Assembly: GCA_017650305.1 (NCBI GenBank)
Contig: JAGCFD010000063.1
Span: 1-50,961 of the forward strand
Reading direction: 5' to 3'
Origin: Bacteroidales bacterium
Lineage (GTDB): Bacteria; Bacteroidota; Bacteroidia; Bacteroidales; WCHB1-69
DNA: 50,961 nt
Position 1 is the first letter of the stretch. Each line of letters begins with the position of its first letter. The notes under the pieces are model-generated. The model made no database searches and had not been told where the DNA came from. It saw only the letters and a program-made list of their open reading frames with translations. Of the stretch, positions 1 to 10,759 are shown piece after piece. Position numbers and translations under genes: made by a program.

Positions 1-1406
1 TCCGTACGGTGCTTGTAGGTCTCCACAATGGTGTTGATGTGCTCGGGGGTGAGAACATTCTGCTTTTTGCCTTTCTCAAAAAGCTCGGCAGCGTTGATGA
101 AAAGGACATCGTCGTTTTGACGGCATTTTTTGAGCACGATGATGCAGACGGGAATACCGGTGGAGAAGAAGAGGTTGGAAGGCAGACCGATAATGCAATC
201 AACATTGCTGTCTTTGAGCAACTTGGTGCGGATGCGCTCTTCCGCCCCGCCTCTGAAAAGCACACCGTGAGGCAGGATGATGGCCATCGTGCCCGAGTCG
301 CTGAGATAGTGGAAGCCGTGGAGCAGGAATGCGAAATCGGCGGCGGACTTGGGCGCAACGCCATAGTTGGCAAAACGCGGGTCTTGCGAGGTTTCTTCCT
401 TGGGGTCCCATCTGAGGGAGAAGGGCGGATTGGCCACCACCGCGTCAAAGCGCAACTGCTTGGAGGGGTCTTCCTCCGTCAGGAGCGGCCAGTCGTTGGT
501 GAGGGTGTCGCCGTGGAAGATCTGGAACTCGGAATCCTTGACGCCGTGCAACAGCATGTTCATGCGGGCAAGGTTGTAGGTGGTGATGTTCTTCTCCTGG
601 CCGTAGATGCGACCGATTTTGCCGCCGGATTCCTCCATCTGCTTCTTCACATTCAGCAGCAGGGAACCGGAACCGCAGGCAAAGTCGAGCACGCTGTTGA
701 GACTCTTCTTGGGACCGGTGGCAGGATCCTGGCTGTCGAGGATGACGATGCGCGAGAGGATGCTGGAAATCTGTTGCGGCGTGTAGAATTCGCCCGCCTT
801 CTGACCGGCATTGGCAGCAAACTGCCCTATGAGGTACTCGTAGGCATCGCCCAAAATGTCGTAGTCTTTGCTGAAGGTGACGAGATTCTCTTCCAACGTG
901 GAGATGACCTTGCAGAGCATGGCATTCCGGGAGGTGTAATCCTTGCCAAGCTTCTCGGAGGCGAGGTTGATTTCAGAGAAAAGGCCTTGTAGCGAGCTCT
1001 CGAAAGATTCGTTCTCAATGTATTTGAACGCATCCTGAAGTGTGTCGAGGAGGTCCTGACTTTGCGTGCGGGCAAGTTCGTAGATGTTGTTCCACAGGTA
1101 TTTGGGGTCGATGATGTAGTGCAGACTGCGCTGCATCTCGGCCTGGAAATCAGCGACATCAGCAGCGTTCTCGTCACACCAGGTCTTGAGCGGATTCTTG
1201 GTGTCCGGAAAATCACTGCCGAGAATCTTCCGGGCCTCTTTCTCATAGTTTTCCGAAAGGTAGCGCATAAAGAGCAGCGAGAGCATATAGTCGCGGAAGT
1301 TGTCGGCGGTCATGGCGCCACGGAGGGTGTCGGCCACATTCCAGAGTGCGGCAAAAAGTTTCTGTTTTTCCTGTGCGTTGAGACGGTTGGTTTCGTTGTT
1401 TTCCAT
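1..1406 (-). CDS. hsdM: Type I restriction-modification methyltransferase subunit HsdM (C-terminus cut by window edge)
   Basis: This is the adenine N6-methyltransferase subunit of a type I restriction-modification enzyme; it modifies host DNA as part of an M2S complex and joins HsdR for restriction. About 468 codons are visible, starting at the ATG at 1406 (MENNETNRL), and the frame is open to the left edge. The N-terminal helical HsdM domain is followed by SAM-binding motif I (DFACGSGS, near residues 239-250) and the catalytic NPPF motif (VVANPPF, near 323-329), both intact. HsdM is usually about 500 residues or more, so only the tail is missing. No TAnnTTTG element is seen in the 112-base gap upstream, so it is probably read through from the genes before it. 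Separation of hsdM from hsdS by two other genes is unusual. Confidence 0.93.
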   Translation of the reverse strand, partial: MENNETNRLNAQEKQKLFAALWNVADTLRGAMTADNFRDYMLSLLFMRYLSENYEKEARKILGSDFPDTKNPLKTWCDENAADVADFQAEMQRSLHYIIDPKYLWNNIYELARTQSQDLLDTLQDAFKYIENESFESSLQGLFSEINLASEKLGKDYTSRNAMLCKVISTLEENLVTFSKDYDILGDAYEYLIGQFAANAGQKAGEFYTPQQISSILSRIVILDSQDPATGPKKSLNSVLDFACGSGSLLLNVKKQMEESGGKIGRIYGQEKNITTYNLARMNMLLHGVKDSEFQIFHGDTLTNDWPLLTEEDPSKQLRFDAVVANPPFSLRWDPKEETSQDPRFANYGVAPKSAADFAFLLHGFHYLSDSGTMAIILPHGVLFRGGAEERIRTKLLKDSNVDCIIGLPSNLFFSTGIPVCIIVLKKCRQNDDVLFINAAELFEKGKKQNVLTPEHINTIVETYKHRT

Positions 1407-1425
1407 ATTGTTTGTTTTTGTATCA

Positions 1426-1453
1426 GCAATGAGCAATTTTCAATTAGCAATTG
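1426..1453. repeat. Short degenerate heptamer array upstream of hsdM
   Basis: Four 7-base units run in tandem: GCAATGA, GCAATTT, TCAATTA, GCAATTG. The first 12 bases (GCAATGAGCAAT, 1426-1437) occur again in inverted orientation at 3180-3191, on the other side of the Xre-ImmA/PIN gene pair. No function is known to me. Confidence 0.6.
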
Positions 1454-1518
1454 ATTTTATTATTCCTTTGTTGCTCATCTATGACTGTTTATATTTATCT
1501 CTAATCCGTGAACGCCGT

Positions 1519-2031
1519 TCATTCTTGAACTCGTTTTATCCAATCCATGAAGATTGCTTTCGGCAACCGGGGATTGATATCCAGCAAGTGTTCAAGACGA
1601 GAAGCCATTTCCGAACCAGTCAAAAGCCCTTCCTTGACAAAATGGTCGGCGAGGTAGAGGATCCCTGATACCATCACGCCTTCATCCTCGGCGTGGTTGC
1701 GCAGCTTTCGGTCGCCGGTGAGCATTCGATAGTTGTTGTCTTTAGCGTACTTCAAGACTGCACAGTCCGTAATTGTCAAGTTGGACTTGCTCGCGAACTT
1801 ACCATAATAAGAGAAAAGGTCAGAGGCTTCTTTCCCTTCGAATGAGAATACCGCCAAATGCCCTTCCTCTACCATTCGGTCAACAATAGGTCGTTCGTAT
1901 GGAGACCTATGCAGCTCAGCAATAACATAGTCCACGGTGTGGAAATGAACTGACGAAACCGCCACCATTTCAAGCAGTCCTGCTGCATCCATATCAATGA
2001 GTATCTGAGTATCGCTTACTACTATTTCCAT
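1519..2031 (-). CDS. PIN-domain nuclease-like protein (putative toxin of an Xre-ImmA/PIN pair)
   Basis: This 170-residue protein looks like a PIN-domain RNase. Four acidic residues sit where a PIN active site needs them: D7 (VSDTQIL), E39 (VIAEL), D89 (TITDCAV) and D107 (LTGDRKL). PIN proteins of this size are commonly toxins of toxin-antitoxin systems or RNA-processing nucleases. Its ATG overlaps the stop codon of the upstream Xre-ImmA gene by one base (TGATG on the minus strand), so the two are almost certainly translationally coupled. The pair lies between hsdS and hsdM. Toxicity is inferred from family and gene arrangement. A role as an effector released when the neighbouring protease-repressor is triggered is possible but not shown. 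Confidence 0.8.
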   Translation of the reverse strand: MEIVVSDTQILIDMDAAGLLEMVAVSSVHFHTVDYVIAELHRSPYERPIVDRMVEEGHLAVFSFEGKEASDLFSYYGKFASKSNLTITDCAVLKYAKDNNYRMLTGDRKLRNHAEDEGVMVSGILYLADHFVKEGLLTGSEMASRLEHLLDINPRLPKAIFMDWIKRVQE

Positions 2032-3077
2032 CAGGCAAGGGCAGTTTGGGCGTTTACTTCATCAACGGATGTGCCAAGCAGACTGGCGGCTTTCGATATG
2101 GAAATCATGCTGTCGGCTAATGCTTTAAAGACCAGCCGTTCGAAACGCGATGACATTTCTTTGGGATAGACACTTTCCTGCACACGCTTTTTCAATTCTG
2201 TGTTGCGGTTCATGTCTATGCACAGCGATCTGTGAACACTTTCCGTGATAATCCCTATCTGTTTGGCTTTGACTAAAATGGCGTCAACTGAAATACCAAA
2301 GCCATTCTGGATAAGTTTCAGTTCCTTCCAAGACAGGTTCTTTCTGTGCTCGCCTAACAATGATTTCAAGACCGCTGAGGGCAACAGCACCTCATTGGCA
2401 AACACGTTACACAGACGTTCCACATCGGCATTCTCGTCAAAAGCCAGTATCAAGTGTGCCAACTCGTGGAAAAGGGTCAGTCTTCTACGCTCTGAAATCA
2501 AATTTCGGTTCAATACAATCACCGGCAAGCCAAGGTCTCGCACACAACTGCCGTCAAATTTCGGGTCAGTGTCAATCTCAATCACTTTCACCCCGTTGCT
2601 TTCCAGCACCTCGATGGGCGTGGAAATGCAGTCAATCCCCAAATTCAGATCCTGGCGGAAACGAGCCCCGAGGGATCTCGCATCGTTGTCGGTTTGCAGG
2701 AGAATATCGCCATACGACAAGCCGAACCGCACGCTTTCGCGGGTGATAGCCTCAATTTCCTGATATTTCTCAATGGAAAGGGCAATGCTCTCTTTGATGG
2801 AGGCCTCTTTCTTGGCCGGCAGGCTTGACCGTTTGCGGAACTCGAAACTGTTGGGGTCTATGTTTACCGTGAACGGTCGGAAGAAGTAGTCCACATCGAA
2901 ATCCAAGGCCTCAGCGATGGCAATCAAGTTCTGGCTTGACGGAAGCATCTTGCCTGTTTCGTATTTGGCGATGGCATTGCTTGAAATTCTTCCGTCCAAG
3001 CGCGAACAGAGCTCTCTCTGAGAGTATCCACGGATTTTACGTGCGTTTATAAGCCGTTGTGCAAAAGTCTTTTCCAT
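2031..3077 (-). CDS. Xre-type repressor fused to ImmA/IrrE metallopeptidase
   Basis: Residues 5-65 form an Xre-family helix-turn-helix (NARKIRGYSQRELCSRL followed by IAKYETGKMLPS). Residues about 150-260 form an ImmA/IrrE (COG2856) zinc metallopeptidase with HELAH at 204-208 and a likely third ligand at E229 (CNVFANEVLLPS). In this family such proteins combine DNA binding with regulated proteolysis, as in ImmA of ICEBs1 and IrrE of Deinococcus, which remove a repressor. Here repressor and protease are one chain, as in predicted Xre-COG2856 toxin-antitoxin modules. The gene has its own -7 element bracketed by an inverted repeat (3110-3148), consistent with autoregulation. It is coupled to the downstream PIN gene. 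Confidence 0.88.
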   Translation of the reverse strand: MEKTFAQRLINARKIRGYSQRELCSRLDGRISSNAIAKYETGKMLPSSQNLIAIAEALDFDVDYFFRPFTVNIDPNSFEFRKRSSLPAKKEASIKESIALSIEKYQEIEAITRESVRFGLSYGDILLQTDNDARSLGARFRQDLNLGIDCISTPIEVLESNGVKVIEIDTDPKFDGSCVRDLGLPVIVLNRNLISERRRLTLFHELAHLILAFDENADVERLCNVFANEVLLPSAVLKSLLGEHRKNLSWKELKLIQNGFGISVDAILVKAKQIGIITESVHRSLCIDMNRNTELKKRVQESVYPKEMSSRFERLVFKALADSMISISKAASLLGTSVDEVNAQTALA

Positions 3078-3109
3078 ACTTTTCTTGATGTTTTTTCATT
3101 GTTTGCTTT

Positions 3110-3148
3110 GGTGTGCAAAAATACAAAATTATTTTAAATATGCACACC
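3110..3148 (-). promoter_or_regulatory. Inverted-repeat operator bracketing the promoter of the Xre-ImmA gene
   Basis: Perfect 8-base arms GGTGTGCA (3110-3117) and TGCACACC (3141-3148) are separated by 23 bases. The Bacteroidota -7 element TATTTTTG (minus strand, 3123 to 3116) overlaps the downstream arm, so a dimer bound to both half-sites would cover the promoter. The start codon of the Xre-ImmA gene lies about 40 bases downstream. The repeat is seen directly; its use as the Xre operator is inference. Confidence 0.7.
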
Positions 3149-3179
3149 ATAATGCAATTAGAAATTTATTCTTCTCCTC

Positions 3180-3191
3180 ATTGCTCATTGC
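3180..3191. repeat. Inverted copy of the 12-mer found upstream of hsdM, overlapping the hsdS stop
   Basis: ATTGCTCATTGC is the exact reverse complement of GCAATGAGCAAT at 1426-1437. The TGA stop codon of hsdS is part of it, and one more GCAATGA-like unit follows. Together the two copies frame the Xre-ImmA/PIN module. Confidence 0.65.
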
Positions 3192-4351
3192 AAATTGGGA
3201 AACAGCTTCTGCATCAGCCCTTTCTTGTGCTCCTTGAGCGCCTCCACCTTCTCCTGCTGCGCGGCAATCCCCTCGTCCAATGAAGAAAGACACTCGGCGA
3301 TTTTCTGCTGCTCGGGGAGAGAAGGGATGGAGAAAAGATAATCCAACATCATTTTTTTATCTCCTCGTGGCATTTTTACTCCTTTGGCTCCTGACATAGA
3401 GTGAGCGATAAAACGGTCACTTTTAATAACTTGTGATACAAACAAACGGTCATAACCATCCAATGTCCGAAAAACAATCACATCATTTGATGCAGCTCCA
3501 TCAAAAACCGCTTGCCACACCTTCTTCAAATAAGGCCTAATATTTGAAAAAAGAATGTCTCCTTTATTAAATCGAGTAAAAGACCCAGAGTTCGGCAATT
3601 TTGAAGCAATTTTCACTCCTTCAAAATCTTGCAACATATTTTCAGTGCTAATATATGTTACCATTGTTAAACTACCAATATCACACTTATCGTCAACTAC
3701 ATTGCACACTTCTCCCAACTTCTTCTCTTCCCACTCCCCTTCAAACCCCGGGAACCGAAGTTTGGGCGTGGTCTCCCCTTCCTGCGGGAAGAGCTGCTGC
3801 ATCAGGCCTTTTTTGTGGTCCTTGAGCGCCTGCAGCTGGTCCGCCTCCGCCTGGATGAGGTCGTCCACACTGCTCAGGCACTCGGCGATTTTCTGCTGCT
3901 CGGGGAGAGAAGGAGGAAGGGAAATGAGCATATCCGATATCATTTCCAACCTAACTGAATCTACGGTTGCTTTTGCTGATAATCGCATAGCCCTCTCGTA
4001 AAAGTTTTCCGAAAAAAAATAATAAAAAAAACGGGGATTAACATCTTTAAAACTAGACATCATATAACATCTTTGATGTAAATCGAATTTTCCATTTACA
4101 TAATGAAAAACTTTTCCTATCTGGCCATCTCCTATTGTTATTACTGCCTCACAATCATACAAATAACGATTGCTTCTAACTGGAATTGCTGAACGTATAT
4201 AAAAAGGATATTGTCCATTATCAACTTGATCTTGAGAATTACTCTTTCCCGTATTTATATTACAAATATCCTTTACTTTTTTCACTTCCCATTCCCCATC
4301 AAATCCCGGGAATCTGAGTTCGGGTACCAATGATTGTTTTTTATCTTGCAT
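3185..4351 (-). CDS. hsdS: Type I restriction-modification specificity subunit HsdS
   Basis: HsdS reads the split DNA target for both the methyltransferase and the nuclease. The 388-residue protein shows the expected two-fold organisation: two target-recognition domains, each opened by the same LRFPGF-GEWE motif (residues 12-21 and 198-207) and each closed by an identical SLPEQQKIAECLSS segment (148-161 and 344-357) leading into a helical spacer (ALKDHKKGLMQ / ALKEHKKGLMQ). The two recognition domains differ, so the target is probably bipartite and asymmetric. The closing segments are also identical at the DNA level (35 bases at 3291-3325 and 3879-3913). The gene starts 18 bases after the prrC-like stop and is probably cotranscribed with it. 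Confidence 0.95.
   Translation of the reverse strand: MQDKKQSLVPELRFPGFDGEWEVKKVKDICNINTGKSNSQDQVDNGQYPFYIRSAIPVRSNRYLYDCEAVITIGDGQIGKVFHYVNGKFDLHQRCYMMSSFKDVNPRFFYYFFSENFYERAMRLSAKATVDSVRLEMISDMLISLPPSLPEQQKIAECLSSVDDLIQAEADQLQALKDHKKGLMQQLFPQEGETTPKLRFPGFEGEWEEKKLGEVCNVVDDKCDIGSLTMVTYISTENMLQDFEGVKIASKLPNSGSFTRFNKGDILFSNIRPYLKKVWQAVFDGAASNDVIVFRTLDGYDRLFVSQVIKSDRFIAHSMSGAKGVKMPRGDKKMMLDYLFSIPSLPEQQKIAECLSSLDEGIAAQQEKVEALKEHKKGLMQKLFPNLQ
3291..3325. repeat. 35-base direct repeat inside hsdS, copy 1 (copy 2 at 3879-3913)
   Basis: The 35 bases at 3291-3325 are identical to 3879-3913, 588 bases away. They encode the conserved region after each target-recognition domain. Such repeats can serve as recombination points for swapping HsdS recognition domains; that use is inferred. 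Confidence 0.75.
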
Positions 4352-4369: not shown

Positions 4370-5626
4370 TTATAGTTCAGGTACGTTGATATTGTATTTC
4401 TTGACGAGATGGTCAAAGATGTCGCGGAGCAACTGAATGTTATCCTCGTTGAGCGTAGTGGGTTCGAACATAGTGTTGCCGAAGTGCGAAAGCACATTGA
4501 GGGCATTATGGTGGAGGCGGTTAAAGCCGTCGGCATCGGGATCGTTTGCGGCAAATTCTTGCCCTTCAAAATGGAATATGATGCCGTCAAGTACTTGGCC
4601 CAAGGGACCGTCTTTCATATTCCCTTGCCCGAGCACCTGCGCAAATTGCTCGATGATACCCCGCATGACATTGAAATGATAGCGCTGAAGCAGAAACGGC
4701 TGCCGGCTGTCGTGCGCCTCCAGCTCTTTTTTGATCTGCGCCAACATGTGGAGATGATAAAAAGCCGGCGTGTGCTCGGAAAGAGGGGCACACAGAATCT
4801 CGTCCGTTCCGGAGCTGTCCCGGTAAAGATTGAGTCCGTAGCAACCTTTCAGTCCGTTCCGCATGGTGTTGTAGAACACCGTGTGGTGGGTGGAGATGAC
4901 AAAGAATGGATAGCCTAACGTGTCTTGAATGTTGGTGGCGGTGAATCTGCTGCAAACATCCTCGTGGCATTTGTTGATGAGCTCGAAAAGTTGGCTGGCA
5001 AAAAGGATGACGTTGTTGTCGTCGAGCGAAGACATGGGATCGTCTATGTAGATATAGCGGATGCCTTTGAATTTGTTGTCCCCCGTCAGAACCAGCTCCA
5101 TAATATAACGGAACACGCTCCACACGAAGAGGCGCTCTTCACCACGGGAAATTTTGATATGGTCGGCCGTGTTACCATTTTCCATCTTGCGGGAAAACCA
5201 GACTTCCCGGGGTATGTTGTCGCCCGTAACCACAAGTTTGCCCTCTTCGTCATGGTAATCGCTTTCAAAGTGCGCTTCGAATCCGGACAGTGTTCTCAGG
5301 TAGGAGTTGACACCCTCGTCATAATTGTAACCGGAGAGTCCTTGGACCAGTTCAGAATCGGTATTGATGACCATATATCGTTCAGTGTCGTTTTCAAGGT
5401 CATTATGCCATCTGAAAAGGTCTTCGGTAAAAGCGTTATAATAGAGTGTGTGATGTTTGCCGCCAATGCGGTCTTTGTGTGCAAACCGATAAGACAGTCG
5501 GGTTTTGCCAGTACCGTTAAAGGCAAAGAGCAGTGCGCAGTTAGTGAATTGAACCCCTTTCTTGGAATGAGTCCAGAAACCGAGCTTTTTTCGGATGGTG
5601 TCTATGATTTGATCTGATCCTTTCAT
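4370..5626 (-). CDS. prrC: PrrC-type anticodon nuclease (ABC-ATPase plus ACNase domain)
   Basis: PrrC proteins are tRNA anticodon nucleases held inactive by a partner type I restriction enzyme and released when a phage inhibits that enzyme. The 418-residue length fits (E. coli PrrC is about 396). Visible are Walker A (FNGTGKT, 36-42), the family block YYNAFTEDLF (62-71), an ABC signature (SRGEE, 160-164), Walker B (YIYIDDPMSSLDD, 191-203) and a switch histidine region (STHHTVFYN, 245-253). The C-terminal domain has RYHF followed by R322-x3-E326, matching the R-x3-E of the PrrC active site (R320/E324 in E. coli). The third residue would be H372, H373 or H381. The position between hsdR and hsdS is the classic prr arrangement. 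A generic AAA ATPase is the alternative, but the shared blocks make that less likely. Confidence 0.85.
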   Translation of the reverse strand: MKGSDQIIDTIRKKLGFWTHSKKGVQFTNCALLFAFNGTGKTRLSYRFAHKDRIGGKHHTLYYNAFTEDLFRWHNDLENDTERYMVINTDSELVQGLSGYNYDEGVNSYLRTLSGFEAHFESDYHDEEGKLVVTGDNIPREVWFSRKMENGNTADHIKISRGEERLFVWSVFRYIMELVLTGDNKFKGIRYIYIDDPMSSLDDNNVILFASQLFELINKCHEDVCSRFTATNIQDTLGYPFFVISTHHTVFYNTMRNGLKGCYGLNLYRDSSGTDEILCAPLSEHTPAFYHLHMLAQIKKELEAHDSRQPFLLQRYHFNVMRGIIEQFAQVLGQGNMKDGPLGQVLDGIIFHFEGQEFAANDPDADGFNRLHHNALNVLSHFGNTMFEPTTLNEDNIQLLRDIFDHLVKKYNINVPEL

Positions 5627-5661: not shown

Positions 5662-8622
5662 TTATTCCGTCACGTAAGCGCTAAGCCCTTCAATCTTGCG
5701 TCCTGAAGCGAGTCGGTTGAAATGCGGGGCAAGTTCATTCATAAGGCTCTCTTTCGCAGCCTTGCGCGCCTTCCAACCCATGGAGGCAAAGAGTTCGTTC
5801 AGTTTGTCTTCGTCAATGCGCGCAAAGCGGATGGTCTCGGTGATGAAGGCAAGAAGACTTTCCTTGTCAATGCTATAGCTCTCGGCCATGGCGGCAAATG
5901 TCTCGTTAATCATCTTCTCCTTAAAGGCCTGATAGCCGTCTTTCACCTCCTGGTCGGACATGGCAGTGCCGAGAGGCAACGAGTCGATATAGGCGGCTAT
6001 ATACTCTTTCTCGTCCGCCACTTCAGTACTGGAGGTGAGAATGGAGAGCAGTTGCTCCTTGGTCATCTTTTGCTTGTGTGTGGGACGCGTATAGAGCGAG
6101 ATCAGGTGCATGATGTAGTCGTAGTCAATCACCGTGGAGGCGAAGAGCACCAGTTCGAAGTCATAATCCTTATACTTGGAGTCTTCAGGGTCGGTATTTT
6201 GGGCAAGATTCTCCTTTATCTCTTTGGCGGTTTCCAAGTATGCGCCGCGGAAAGCACGGAGGGTGTCGTCGTCGAGGTCTTTCTGAATGGCCTGTTGCTG
6301 TTCTGGCGTGAGGTCGGTGTATTGGTCGAGCCGCGTCTTGAGCGCCTGAACCTTCTTGAAGGCTTCGATGAAGTCCATCTTGGCTTCGGTGCCGGCCAGA
6401 TTGCCCACCTCGGCAGGTGTGCAGTCGAGATTGTGCCCGTTCATCGTGGATATAAGCGCTTGAACGGCATTGTGATAATCCTGGATAACCTCGGATGCGG
6501 GTGCCACGAGCCAGATCTTTTTCTCGGCTTCAACATCCGTGCCGGAGAAAAGCGTGATGGCTTCATCCACACGATTGCGGAGGTCTTTGTAACAGATGAT
6601 GTTGCCGTAGGGCTTGGTAGCATTGAGGATACGGTTGGTTCTGGAAAAAGCCTGGATCAGCGAGTGGTGTTTGAGATCCTTATCCACATAGAGGGTGTTG
6701 AGGTATTTGGAATCGAAACCGGTGAGCAGCATATCCACCACAATAACAATGTCAACCTTCTTGTCTTGCGGCACCACGGAATTGGGGTACTTTTGATCCT
6801 TGATCCGCTTTTGCACGTCGCGGTAGTAGTCGTCAAAATTGTTCACAGAGTGATTCGTGCCAAACCGAATGTTGTATTGCGTAATGATACTGCTGAGCGC
6901 CGCTTTTTTGCCGGAAGGATCCGTTTGGAGATCCCACTTTTCCTGTTCAAGATCTTCTTGCAGTTGCTCTATGTCTTTGTTGCCTTCGGCCGGAGGCGTG
7001 AAAACACAAGCGATGTTGAGGGGTTTGTAATCCGGAACAGTGACTAACAGCACCTCCTGCTTGCGCTCAAACAGACGGTGATACTCGATGGCCTCGTCAA
7101 TGGAGCCGGTGGCAAATATCGCATTGAAGCGGCGATGGTTGGTGGCAGCGTCATGTTTCGACAAAATGTTCTCGACAATGGCTTCACGGGTAGGCGCGAC
7201 AACGTGGCCCTCATTTTCAGCGTGGTAGTAATCGATATGGAATTGGAGCACGTTTTTGTCATCAATGGCATTGGTGATGGTGTATTGGTGGAGCTGCTTC
7301 TGGAACACATCTTTCGTGGTAACGTAGGAAGCTGTAGTGCCATCGATTTTAGTGTAGCAGCTATTTGTCTCAAAGATGGGCGTTCCAGTGAAACCGAACA
7401 TTTGGGCGTGAGGGAAAAACTCTTCAATCACGCGACGGTTCTCACCAAACTGGCTCCGGTGGCATTCGTCGAAAATGAAGACAATTCGCTTGTTCTGAAG
7501 CATGCGAAGACGCTCAATGTAATTCTGACGGTTATTGGGATCCAACGCAAGGCCAAGTTTCTGAATGGTGGTGACTATCACCTTGTCGGCATAGTCTTCG
7601 GAACACAGTCGGTTGACCAATGCACCAGTATTGACATTCTGCTCCACACAGCCTTCCTGGAACTTGTTGAACTCTTCGCGTGTCTGGGTGTCCAGATCCT
7701 TGCGGTCCACCACGAAAATGCACTTTGCAATGTCGCCGTTCCCTTTCAACAGCGTGGAGGCCTTGAATGAAGTCAAGGTTTTTCCTGAACCTGTGGTATG
7801 CCAGATGTACCCATTGCCGGAGTCATTGTCCACACATTGGAGGATACTTTCAACGGCATAAATCTGATAGGGGCGCATCACCATCATCTGCCGGGTGCTT
7901 TGCACGAGGACCATGTATCGGCTGATGAGTCGGCCAAGCGTGCATTTGGGCAACATGAGAGAGGTGAAAGAATGGAGATCCAGAACCTTGTGTCCTTCGC
8001 GAGTGGCCGCCCGGCAAACCGGAAGATATTGCTCGTCCGCATCGAATTTGAAAAAGTCGTCGTTGTTGTTGGCAAAATATAGCGTGTTGGAAGCCCCGTT
8101 GCTCACCACAAACAGTTGCATGAAGCACATAATCGTGTTGGTGTAGCCGTTACCCCGGTCTTTCTTGTATTTGGCAATCTGTTCAATGGCTTTGATGGGG
8201 GAGATGACCACATCCTTGAGCTCGATTTGCACCAATGGAAGACCATTGATGAGGATGACCACATCGTAGCGGTGATTGCTGTCTTCAGTGTTGATCCGAA
8301 GCTGGTTACAAACTTCGTATGTGTTTTTACACCAGTCTTTAATATTGACGAGCGTATAGTTGAGCGGGGTGCCATCGTCGCGAATGAACGTCTGTTTTTC
8401 GCGGAGCAACTGTGACGCTTTGAAAACGTCCGGCGTTATGATTTCACCAAGAAGGCGCTCAAATTCATGGTCGGAGAGGTGTACAAAGTTAAGGCGCTCA
8501 AACTTCTCGCGAAAGTTTTTCCGAAGAGATTCTGAATTATGGATGTCGTTGCGATAAACGTAATTCAGTTCCTGTAATTGTTCGATGAACTGCTGCTCAA
8601 TTTGTGCTTCTTTTCGACTCAT
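5662..8622 (-). CDS. hsdR: Type I restriction enzyme endonuclease/translocase subunit HsdR
   Basis: HsdR translocates and cuts unmodified DNA. With the ATG at 8622 it is 986 residues. It has a PD-(D/E)xK nuclease (D120; E134-L-K136 in QIELKD), an SF2 motor with Walker A (TTGSGKT, 276-282), the DECH box (385-388), TATA-like motif III (GFTGTPI) and motif VI (QAFSRTNR), and a helical C-terminal assembly domain. The frame is open to 8658, but those codons overlap a TAnnTTTG promoter element at 8648-8655, so MSRKEAQ at 8622 is the better start. The prrC-like gene follows after 35 bases. All catalytic motifs are intact. Confidence 0.95.
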   Translation of the reverse strand: MSRKEAQIEQQFIEQLQELNYVYRNDIHNSESLRKNFREKFERLNFVHLSDHEFERLLGEIITPDVFKASQLLREKQTFIRDDGTPLNYTLVNIKDWCKNTYEVCNQLRINTEDSNHRYDVVILINGLPLVQIELKDVVISPIKAIEQIAKYKKDRGNGYTNTIMCFMQLFVVSNGASNTLYFANNNDDFFKFDADEQYLPVCRAATREGHKVLDLHSFTSLMLPKCTLGRLISRYMVLVQSTRQMMVMRPYQIYAVESILQCVDNDSGNGYIWHTTGSGKTLTSFKASTLLKGNGDIAKCIFVVDRKDLDTQTREEFNKFQEGCVEQNVNTGALVNRLCSEDYADKVIVTTIQKLGLALDPNNRQNYIERLRMLQNKRIVFIFDECHRSQFGENRRVIEEFFPHAQMFGFTGTPIFETNSCYTKIDGTTASYVTTKDVFQKQLHQYTITNAIDDKNVLQFHIDYYHAENEGHVVAPTREAIVENILSKHDAATNHRRFNAIFATGSIDEAIEYHRLFERKQEVLLVTVPDYKPLNIACVFTPPAEGNKDIEQLQEDLEQEKWDLQTDPSGKKAALSSIITQYNIRFGTNHSVNNFDDYYRDVQKRIKDQKYPNSVVPQDKKVDIVIVVDMLLTGFDSKYLNTLYVDKDLKHHSLIQAFSRTNRILNATKPYGNIICYKDLRNRVDEAITLFSGTDVEAEKKIWLVAPASEVIQDYHNAVQALISTMNGHNLDCTPAEVGNLAGTEAKMDFIEAFKKVQALKTRLDQYTDLTPEQQQAIQKDLDDDTLRAFRGAYLETAKEIKENLAQNTDPEDSKYKDYDFELVLFASTVIDYDYIMHLISLYTRPTHKQKMTKEQLLSILTSSTEVADEKEYIAAYIDSLPLGTAMSDQEVKDGYQAFKEKMINETFAAMAESYSIDKESLLAFITETIRFARIDEDKLNELFASMGWKARKAAKESLMNELAPHFNRLASGRKIEGLSAYVTE

Positions 8623-8647
8623 AGTCTTGTTCTTGTTTTTGACGGTG

Positions 8648-8655
8648 CAAAAATA
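8648..8655 (-). promoter_or_regulatory. -7 promoter element of hsdR
   Basis: TATTTTTG on the minus strand, matching TAnnTTTG, about 25 bases before the hsdR ATG at 8622. It implies that hsdR-prrC-hsdS can be transcribed separately from the WYL gene. Confidence 0.55.
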
Positions 8656-8682
8656 CAACTTTCACGTTCACTCATACTGAAC

Positions 8683-9693
8683 CTATCCCCCGTACCTCTC
8701 CAATCCCTTCCCAATCCTCATCTTTATCTTCTCCCGGAACCATTCCGGTTCAAGTACTTCCATGTTTTCGCCGAAGGACAGGATCAGCTGCTCCAACTCG
8801 TAATTCAGATACACCTCGATGGTGATGACGGCGCCGGTGGCATCCTCAGCGACTTTCTTTTGTGTGCCATGGAGCGGCTTGGTGCGGACGTATGGCCACG
8901 AAACCGGGGAGACCCACAGCTTGACGAGCGTGGGCTCCGCGTTTGAATCTTTGGACACCCCGATCATCTCGTCAAAATAGTCGGCAAAGTTGATGCCGGC
9001 GGGTTGGAACGGCACATCCGTCTCTTTGATGCTCACAATGCGGTCGAGGGCGTAGTTGGTCAAAGCCTCATAGCCCACATTTCTGGCAATCAGGAACCAT
9101 CGCTTGTTGTACTGTTTCAGATAATAGGGATAAACCACGTATTCCACCTCTTGGTCCTGTTTGAAACTTTTATAGGTGATGCACAATGTCCGCTTTTCGC
9201 TGATGGCGTTGAACAGCGGCGTGAAGAGGTCCAGTCCTTCCAAATCCATGTTCTCGTCAAAACCGACCACCTCATCTGTGGAAACCTCATCGATTTTCAA
9301 CGTAGCGCCCAAGCGGTCGGAAATCTCGGTAATCCAGTCGAACTGCGGCATCCCCTTGAACCGTTTCAGCAAACAGAGTGTCTGGATGAGTTGTGCCGTC
9401 TCTTCGGGTTTCAGCAGCGATCTGTAAATGGAGAAATCGGGATCGGCATAGTGATAGCGGATATTCCGCCCCTCCCGAAAACTTTCCACATCCGCATTCG
9501 GGGCGTATATCCGTTGAATTTGTTCTATATCGCCGCGAATGGTGTTCATGGCCGACACGGGTGGGAAATCGTGCAATTCCAACTCCTCATTGCATAATTC
9601 CATCATCTCCGCCATTGAATACTTGCGGTTTTTGTCACTCAGACAGCGGTCAATGACCTTGATGCGGAGATCTGCATTTTTGGAATTCGGCAT
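8683..9693 (-). CDS. WYL-domain transcriptional regulator
   Basis: The 336-residue protein has an N-terminal helix-turn-helix region (about 8-60) and a C-terminal WYL domain (about 150-250) with the signature as W199-F200-L201 in KRWFLIARN. WYL proteins are ligand-responsive regulators frequently found beside defence genes, where the WYL pocket is thought to bind nucleic acid or nucleotide ligands. It is the first gene of the leftward hsd locus and lies 60 bases from hsdR, so control of the restriction genes is likely. A perfect palindrome just after its own -7 element suggests autoregulation. The gene is full length. Confidence 0.88.
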   Translation of the reverse strand: MPNSKNADLRIKVIDRCLSDKNRKYSMAEMMELCNEELELHDFPPVSAMNTIRGDIEQIQRIYAPNADVESFREGRNIRYHYADPDFSIYRSLLKPEETAQLIQTLCLLKRFKGMPQFDWITEISDRLGATLKIDEVSTDEVVGFDENMDLEGLDLFTPLFNAISEKRTLCITYKSFKQDQEVEYVVYPYYLKQYNKRWFLIARNVGYEALTNYALDRIVSIKETDVPFQPAGINFADYFDEMIGVSKDSNAEPTLVKLWVSPVSWPYVRTKPLHGTQKKVAEDATGAVITIEVYLNYELEQLILSFGENMEVLEPEWFREKIKMRIGKGLERYGG

Positions 9694-9710
9694 AATACGA
9701 TACTTTTATG

Positions 9711-9724
9711 GCAAACAAGTTTGC
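9711..9724. promoter_or_regulatory. Palindrome at the likely transcription start of the WYL gene
   Basis: GCAAAC-AA-GTTTGC is a perfect inverted repeat with a 2-base centre. It directly follows the -7 element TACTTTTG (minus strand, 9731 to 9724) and ends 18 bases before the ATG. The position fits a repressor operator, plausibly for the WYL protein itself. Confidence 0.55.
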
Positions 9725-9731
9725 AAAAGTA
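9724..9731 (-). promoter_or_regulatory. -7 promoter element of the WYL gene
   Basis: TACTTTTG on the minus strand, a match to TAnnTTTG, about 31 bases upstream of the ATG at 9693. Confidence 0.55.
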
Positions 9732-10310
9732 GCATTTTTCGGAACATATTGACGGCTGGTGAAAAAGTAGTGGCATGATCAAGAACATAATTCATCGGAG
9801 CCACATCTTCACCAAGAGTCCGTATTGTTAATATTTTTAGGTGATTATATACCTGATGGCACAGCCTCTCCTTTCGCGGCGGGCAAGATACATGCATCTT
9901 GGCAGATGTCACCCGCGCCGCGACCTGTCTTACGCACGCGCCTTTTCCCAGGGGTGAGACGTTCGTACCTCTCGTCTTCACCCCGGGCTACCGATCTGTA
10001 TCCCCTACGGGGAATCGCGAGCCCGCACAGGTGCGTCCGAGCGCCATGGCGAGTGTCTTGCACACAGGCATTGTGGAATCAAGGAAATATTTCGCCATGG
10101 AGCACGTGGGTGGGAAGGCCGACATGGTGAGGCGGACGCGGCGTGAATGGCCGGCCTCCAACAGCGGCGTGCAAAGGCGCTTGCGTTTACAAAAATGCAA
10201 AGCCTTCGGAGTCAGATCCTTTTTGCTCCGGCCGGCATTTTTGTTCACGTTTGCCGCCGCTGTCAGAGGGCGGACAGAGCGGGCGGATTTCATGTCGGCT
10301 TGATCTTTTG

Positions 10311-10336: not shown

Positions 10337-10706
10337 AAGACTATAATTGTTTAATGGACTGATACTTACGACAAAACACAATGTCGCTTTTTGCAGAGAA
10401 ATCTCGAACAAAGAGGTTTTGTTTTCACCATCACATTTGTGCCATCGTGTATATAGTTCCCTATTTTTATCAGTTGCAATAAGATAAACTCTCTTTGAGA
10501 GTATTATGACGGTGAATTTTCTTCCTAAAAAATGCACTGAAACAAGAAAAAGACATTGTTATGCTAACCAATGCACTTTGTGCTCATCTCATTAAATATG
10601 CGTATTTTGCTGGTATTCTTTTGTTTGCAACGAAACTGAAAGAATATAAACCTCTGTAAAAAATAGATGTGCTATTATATCTAATGCGTCTTGAAAATGT
10701 AAAAAC

Positions 10707-10759
10707 ACATCTTTTCGAGATTATTGCAATAGCAAAATTACATCTTTTCAAGATTATTG
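10707..10759. repeat. 20-base direct repeat, two copies 33 bases apart
   Basis: Copies at 10707-10726 and 10740-10759 differ at one base (ACATCTTTTCGAGATTATTG and ACATCTTTTCAAGATTATTG). Each holds a small dyad (ATCTT-TTC-AAGAT in copy 2, one mismatch in copy 1). Helical phasing of about three turns would suit a repeated protein-binding site. They lie just downstream of the ROK kinase stop. Confidence 0.55.

Follow-up and report, generated by a model that had tools for sequence, protein, structure and literature searches.

Gene content of the restriction locus

The window, by which we mean the whole stretch of DNA analysed here (50,961 nucleotides), is one whole contig (G000:C23) of a Bacteroidales genome of 2.09 Mb in 66 contigs that is 84.65% complete. 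Towards one end, its minus strand carries a type I restriction-modification (RM) operon in which the genes follow one another in the order WYL regulator, hsdR, PrrC-like gene, hsdS, Xre-ImmA, PIN and hsdM. The features considered in this work are listed below; L146 and L147 are the corresponding loci of two relatives.

1..1436, minus strand: hsdM; open reading frame from 1436, likely start ATG at 1406, gene cut by the contig end
1411..3194, minus strand: insert, approximate extent relative to the empty site of L147; its ends are local-alignment ends
1413..1437, minus strand: cassette border with ATTGCTCATTGC, common to L146 despite different cargo there
1519..2031, minus strand: PIN-domain RNase, predicted toxin; 170 aa with D7, E39, D89 and D107
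2031..3077, minus strand: Xre helix-turn-helix (HTH), ImmA/IrrE metallopeptidase and UPF0175-like tail in one protein of 348 aa; predicted antitoxin and autorepressor
3109..3149, minus strand: predicted operator, inverted repeat TGGTGTGCA-N23-TGCACACCA over the putative promoter of the pair
3154..3204, minus strand: opposite cassette border with GCAATGAGCAAT, common to L146
3185..4351, minus strand: hsdS, by profile matches
4370..5626, minus strand: PrrC-like gene (anticodon nuclease family) in the interval between hsdR and hsdS; PADLOC PrrC match at 7e-85
5662..8658, minus strand: hsdR, by profile matches
8683..9693, minus strand: WYL-domain regulator at the operon head, by profile matches

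Gene calls and profile matches agree on an hsd locus with a PrrC-like gene and with the pair inserted between hsdS and hsdM, as a first-pass annotation of this DNA had described it. The Xre-ImmA and PIN open reading frames overlap by one base (TGATG), which suggests translational coupling. The G+C content is 47% in PIN, 48.5% in Xre-ImmA, 41% in hsdS, 54% in hsdM and 52% in the remaining window; base composition is not decisive. At the head of the operon, the WYL protein (8683-9693, minus strand) is 94-95% identical in L146 and L147, suggesting that it travels with hsdR, possibly as the regulator of the operon.

Domains of the PIN and Xre-ImmA proteins

The PIN protein of the window had no match at 1e-3 in Pfam or NCBIfam, and a phmmer search of the PDB with this single sequence returned nothing informative. 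The Pfam PIN model matched 16 of 26 aligned relatives (0.01 or better), and a 42-row profile of the family matched PDB 2lcq, 'VapC6', at 5.8e-6. All four acidic residues previously reported for this protein (D7, E39, D89 and D107) are intact and are invariant across the 42 aligned PIN proteins, window included. By its domain and these active-site residues, the protein is predicted to be a VapBC-type RNase. Its sole PADLOC match is a weak one to PDC-S70 (9e-4), a model that matches 21 of the 26 aligned members at 0.01 or better (best 1.7e-9); no model named RmrT matched it. Broken-looking PIN copies were observed at L054 (8001-8501), L124 (9995-10515) and L044 (8001-8360), with an in-frame stop, a shift of frame and, where ImmA is lacking, a partial PIN.

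The partner protein matches HTH_3 (1.9e-11), Peptidase_M78 (8.2e-11) and, in PADLOC, RmrA (5.3e-46). No variation was seen at its HELAH zinc site (H204, E205, H208) or at E220 among 33 aligned proteins (window included), and the HEXXH motif was found in all Xre-ImmA proteins examined (84/84), bearing out the earlier description of an HTH protein fused to a HELAH metallopeptidase. As far as alignment can demonstrate it, the catalytic residues of both proteins are thus conserved.

A conserved motif, RF..LVYRALA.E.IS.SKAA.LL, closes the C-terminal stretch of Xre-ImmA (residues 280-348). Compared by hhalign with a profile of UPF0175 proteins from the same phylum (30 loci fetched, 29 entered since L199 has a stop, 24 used, and five skipped where the locus was short or its frame unreadable), this tail scored a probability of 93% with a pairwise E of 3.3e-7 over 25 columns that contain an HTH-like motif. 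Four other Xre-ImmA segments scored at most 6.5% against UPF0175; the maximum over 60 UPF0175 profiles with shuffled columns was 18.7%, and the reversed profile gave 2.2%. The Pfam UPF0175 model itself matches just 2 of the 33 Xre-ImmA members (best E 0.077), and HTH_Tnp_ISL3 weakly matches the same stretch of the window protein (0.0043). Because the similarity spans 25 HTH-like columns and HTH_Tnp_ISL3 also matches there, the tail may be a generic HTH; at the level of profiles it resembles UPF0175, a family of PIN antitoxins.

The pair across genomes

PIN loci were gathered from genome searches, which gave matches in 22 of 395 genomes of the phylum, 8 of 100 relatives and 9 of 104 genomes (the genome of the window counted each time), and from a scan of genome contigs (65 loci). 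Merging identical C-termini reduced the 99 PIN loci besides the window to 95 distinct ones. In 91 of the 95 (92 by eye), an automatic rule found Xre-ImmA as the gene next upstream of PIN, in the same orientation, with a gap of -5 to 27 bases in 81 of the 91 paired loci. The four loci missed by the rule comprise L079, where the start was miscalled and ImmA lies 8 bp upstream by eye, L071 and L056, which are at contig ends, and L044, a partial PIN for which no ImmA was found.

The distance matrices of PIN and ImmA correlate with r 0.90 (84 distinct pairs including the window, leaving out PIN below 140 aa or ImmA below 300 aa), and 0 of 2000 permutations reached this value. Such co-divergence is expected of cognate partners, and shared vertical descent can also give it. 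Adjacency and correlation together support the coupled pair of repressor-type protease and PIN RNase that had been proposed from the window, and comparison across the loci demonstrates the pairing. PIN relatives were also found on 20 plasmid records (E 1e-3), several of them annotated as PIN plus XRE regulator, and none were found in phage records at the same threshold.

An inverted repeat upstream of the pair

The inverted repeat at 3109-3149 encloses TAATTTTG and TATTTTTG, both resembling the Bacteroidetes -7 element, whose consensus we take to be TAnnTTTG. The 93 upstream regions collected comprised 89 distinct ones, counting that of the window. Arms of 9 nt that pair perfectly and contain three or more G/C occurred in 32 of the 89, where shuffles gave a mean of 0.4 and at most 2. 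Pairing at 8 or more of the 9 positions was seen in 67 of the 89 (shuffle mean 10.2, maximum 18, so that chance would account for about 10 of the 67); the other 22 had no repeat with 8/9 paired. The perfect repeats begin 46-73 nt ahead of the first aligned residue in 29 of 32 cases, and those of L070, L076 and L085 lie elsewhere. Operator-like repeats accompany most copies of the pair, with or without hsd genes nearby.

The commonest arms are GTTGACA/TGTCAAC, and both arms vary together between groups. Arms of the type GTGTGCA/TGCACAC are present in the window, in L053 (from the genome that also holds L062) and in L061, and L159 is mixed. The DNA-reading helix is S-x-N-A-I-A-K in the window, L053, L061 and L159, with K-Q or R-Q in 25 of 33 aligned proteins. 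Because L095 and L096 combine a helix N with GTTGAC arms, the link between arm and helix is suggestive only.

Within the window, no second full copy of the operator was found with up to three mismatches, and half-sites with one mismatch, some of them in prrC and hsdR, numbered 20 against a shuffle mean of 13.9, which is not above chance. Since the full palindrome is unique to the promoter of the pair and half-sites do not exceed chance, an autoregulated module with its own promoter is indicated. Comparison of the upstream regions demonstrates a palindrome at the putative promoter, and as both its position and its variation are those expected of an operator, we designate it a predicted operator.

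The same restriction operon without the pair

In G411 and G395, which belong to the genus of the window, the hsdM protein is 99% identical, and genome searches gave no PIN match in either genome. At L147 (G395), the hsdS stop codon is 27 bases from the hsdM ATG, and window positions 1-1410 and 3195-3914 align to this locus at about 97%, which delimits an insert of approximately 1411-3194. L148 (G397, hsdM 88%) is likewise without the insert. The corresponding gap of L146 (G411) is occupied by a DUF4062/HATPase gene of 554 aa, flanked by the borders also present in the window: GCAATGAGCAATGAGGAG... on the hsdS side and ...TTGCTAATTGAAAATTGCTCATTGCT on the hsdM side. The hsdM and hsdS sides of the window match L146 and L147 at about 96.5-97.5%. 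Different cargo between the same borders indicates that cargo was probably exchanged there.

The border 12-mer GCAATGAGCAAT, allowing one mismatch, is found within the window at the two borders only, and 9 of 100 shuffles reach two matches. A related border 12-mer, AATTGCTCATTG, occurs once in each of G000, G395, G397 and G444 and twice in G411. Its copies lie in the RM locus of G000, G411 and G395, and elsewhere in G397 and G444; in G395, and once in G411, it stands before hsdS and not in the hsdS-hsdM gap. We rejected a genome-wide mobile repeat as the source of the border repeat, since AATTGCTCATTG has just 1-2 copies in each of these genomes.

A survey of the gap in other genomes started from 28 places with hsdM (E 1e-100, E 1e-180), of which 27 were taken and G428 (partial, contig end) was left out. 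Eight of the 27 were set aside: L155-L158 (other class or order), L165 and L181 (contig ends), and L185 and L186 (hsdM before hsdS). In the remaining 19 relatives, which are mutually related so that the counts are of non-independent events, the hsdS-hsdM gap is shorter than 200 bases in 5 and holds a PrrC-like gene in 10, a DUF4062/HATPase gene in 1, a KilA-N gene (Pfam) in 1 and an open reading frame without Pfam match in 2. The PADLOC PrrC model matched all six of the ten slot PrrC-like proteins that were submitted, at about 1e-90 or better. The hsdS-hsdM gap is a cargo slot, and the premise that hsdS and hsdM are normally adjacent fails for this class of operon, in which 5 of 19 relatives have them adjacent and 14 of 19 have the gap filled. 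In the window the pair occupies a slot that PrrC often holds, and the window's own PrrC-like gene is between hsdR and hsdS.

Cargo is likewise present between hsdR and hsdS: PDC-S01 in L146, L148 and, by near-identity, L147; ThsB-TIR and PDC-M50A in L148; PDC-M24A/B in L150; and AbiD in L151. Among nine cargo proteins compared with PADLOC, the DUF4062 gene of L146 matched just parts of argonaute-associated models, and no PADLOC model matched the HATPase cargo gene of L153.

Several further observations concern these gaps. At L148, positions 5683-9833 between hsdR and hsdS hold PDC-S01, PrrC-like, PDC-M50A and ThsB-like TIR genes. The slot occupants in other Bacteroidales at L178 (4454-5080), L182 (4259-4978) and L183 (6892-7701) comprise two open reading frames that match nothing in Pfam and look transposase-like by eye, along with a KilA-N gene. 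L185 and L186 have the order hsdR, PrrC-like, hsdM, hsdS with several partial hsdS-like open reading frames alongside on both strands, suggesting an hsdS shuffling locus. Direct repeats of CAATAATCTTGAAAAG(C/T)TG, in 2-3 copies about 27-30 bases apart, precede the AAA_14/DUF4143 (PDC-S01) genes on their 5' side in three relatives (L146 about 8939-9050, L147 about 10440-10539, L148 about 9700-9850). The window has two similar copies at 10708-10759 (minus strand) with no AAA_14/DUF4143 gene alongside. These repeats are possibly an operator or a remnant of lost cargo.

Relation to described systems

Operons of the Xre-COG2856/PIN kind, ImmA antitoxins, PDC-S70 and genes embedded among hsd genes are already in print; statements on the papers cited here refer to extracts of each. 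Makarova et al. (2009) reported fused Xre-COG2856 genes in predicted operons with PIN, with 42 or 60 such adjacencies in their Table 2 depending on the query, and suggested a three-component system in which the protease cuts the Xre repressor (PMC2701414). The pair of the window agrees with this description in having a fused Xre and HEXXH protease in one operon with PIN, and differs in its UPF0175-like tail and operator, neither of which appears in the extracts of that description. The same source gives UPF0175/COG2886 as an HTH-containing antitoxin family of PIN toxins (PMC2701414). The Xre-ImmA tail is similar to it by profile over the 25 columns; here it is borne by a protease-repressor, whereas UPF0175 is a free small protein.

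In RosmerTA (2023), the antitoxin RmrA is an ImmA-domain protein, often with an N-terminal HTH; RmrT toxins are diverse, that of phage Kita depolarises membranes, PIN-like domains are associated with ImmA among the predicted systems, and the RosmerTA of a Gordonia phage protects E. coli narrowly (PMC10440598). The window protein has the ImmA and HTH domains and the RmrA match of such an antitoxin, but its partner is a PIN protein that matches no model named RmrT, whereas the tested RmrT of phage Kita, in the extracts available, is a membrane depolariser. As PIN matches just PDC-S70 in PADLOC while RmrTs are described there as diverse, we use the label 'RosmerTA-like'. The term RosmerTA was not found in PMC9122126.

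PDC-S70, from the Payne et al. 2024 preprint, is described in PMC12988326 as an untested PIN candidate for defence, identified through embedding. The family shares with it the PIN nuclease and the model matches given above; PDC-S70 is described in the extracts as a single-gene system, whereas here PIN nearly always follows Xre-ImmA. For genes embedded among hsd genes, the DarTG2 toxin-antitoxin system (2025) is between hsdS and hsdR of a type I RM operon (PMC12255303), thus resembling the present case as a toxin-antitoxin system between hsd genes and differing from it in position and toxin. In C. jejuni, rlo genes between hsdR and hsdS and mlo genes between hsdS and hsdM (PMC5183652, citing 2005 work) are likewise extra genes in these two gaps. 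Among the matches listed, no title or opening abstract described the exact arrangement of the window, a UPF0175-like tail on Xre-ImmA, or this operator. The conserved inverted-repeat operator over the promoter of the pair and the UPF0175-like tail are details that we have not seen described.

Passenger or guard

We consider it reasonably probable that the pair is a self-contained, autoregulated toxin-antitoxin cassette of the RosmerTA-like or Xre-COG2856-PIN kind, residing in the hsdS-hsdM cargo slot. An antiphage role is suggested by its relatives, since RosmerTA protects and PDC-S70 is a defence candidate found by embedding, and the pair is probably an anti-phage passenger; that PIN is toxic, that Xre-ImmA neutralises it and that the two act against phage is what we infer.

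A lesser but real possibility is a plain addiction or hitch-hiking cassette: the toxin-antitoxin module would secure its own maintenance, with that of its slot as a chance effect, and would play no antiphage part. Its scattered distribution (22/395 phylum genomes and 8/100 relatives, with the window's genome in both), its tandem anatomy, the 20 plasmid records with PIN relatives (E 1e-3) and the absence of the pair from same-genus genomes that have the same RM operon are all in keeping with this. Yet the related operons carry defence-type genes, with PrrC-like genes in the very same slot and ThsB-TIR, AbiD and PDC families between hsdR and hsdS, although this is not universal (the L153 HATPase is unmatched in PADLOC), and RosmerTA relatives protect against phage in the extracts of PMC10440598.

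The first-pass annotation had raised the possibility of a guard: Xre-ImmA would detect that HsdM or HsdS is lost or inhibited, and PIN would be released in response. Linkage to hsd genes bears directly on this reading. Counting profile scores above 60 bits (which excludes hsdR matches of 38 bits at L122 and 41 bits at L034), any hsd gene was present at 6 of the 95 distinct PIN loci within flanks of up to 8 or 10 kb a side, a raw count that may exceed chance. These are L034, L051, L059, L121 and L124, together with L089, which has hsdR only; of the 44 PIN loci flanked by 5 kb or more in both directions, 5 were hsd-positive. The order hsdS-Xre/ImmA-PIN-hsdM, proposed earlier as something to look for in other Bacteroidales, recurred at none of the 95. 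The pair is found mostly elsewhere, which the first-pass annotation had named as a refuting outcome, and the nearest relatives (L061 and L062) have no hsd gene in the flanks examined.

Such a guard would behave like PrrC with EcoprrI, and the position of the pair in a gap that is PrrC-filled in 10 of 19 relatives speaks for it. Against it stand the linkage counts, the operator-like repeat that most copies carry with or without hsd genes nearby, and the lack of a second full operator (up to three mismatches) or of an excess of half-sites (20 against a shuffle mean of 13.9) in the window. We therefore rejected an hsd-specific guard, given that the pair is mostly without hsd genes in the flanks examined and that the same operon is present without the pair, and regard a guard of HsdM or HsdS as improbable. 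Position in the hsd operon alone is no demonstration of a functional link to either protein, and since the pair is usually elsewhere, it would be a self-contained passenger and not a dedicated guard of the restriction enzyme.

It is very unlikely that Xre-ImmA mainly regulates the hsd operon in the manner of a C protein, with PIN processing hsd mRNA. An HTH protein does lie within the RM operon, and the Xre-ImmA profile finds RM controllers such as Csp231I C among many HTH structures, but the pair is conserved without hsd genes, its own promoter is the single place in the window with a full operator, and the operon is also found in relatives that lack the pair. Least credible of all is that unrelated contigs of a metagenome bin were wrongly joined during assembly, for although the exact arrangement is in no other genome searched and the contig, from an incomplete genome (84.65%), ends inside hsdM, both insert borders recur in L146 around different cargo and the hsdM and hsdS sides match L146 and L147 at about 96.5-97.5%.

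A model for the pair

In the passenger reading that we prefer, the pair would be repressed by Xre-ImmA dimers bound at the palindrome, and the UPF0175-like C-terminal tail would keep the PIN RNase inactive. Upon a cue, most likely phage infection or lost synthesis of Xre-ImmA, the ImmA domain would cut Xre-ImmA, or Xre-ImmA would decay. VapC toxins cleave tRNA or rRNA, and by analogy the freed PIN would cleave one of these RNAs and growth would stop. Cargo exchange at a defence hotspot would account for the place of the pair in the hsd operon.

More speculatively, and as an idea that we hold only tentatively, Xre-ImmA may be a three-part self-destructing antitoxin in which an Xre domain reads the palindrome, ImmA serves as the protease and a UPF0175-like tail clamps PIN. 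Signal-activated ImmA would then cut off its own tail, ending repression and neutralisation in one step, and in a slot often held by PrrC this would place a second RNase layer in one type I RM operon.

A single genus contains natural versions of one nearly identical RM operon in which the slot is empty, occupied or re-filled, and with these variants it can be tested directly whether genes that are embedded in restriction operons act as guards or are passengers. How protease-type antitoxins such as RmrA may hold and release PIN toxins can be approached through the conserved operator and the antitoxin-like tail.
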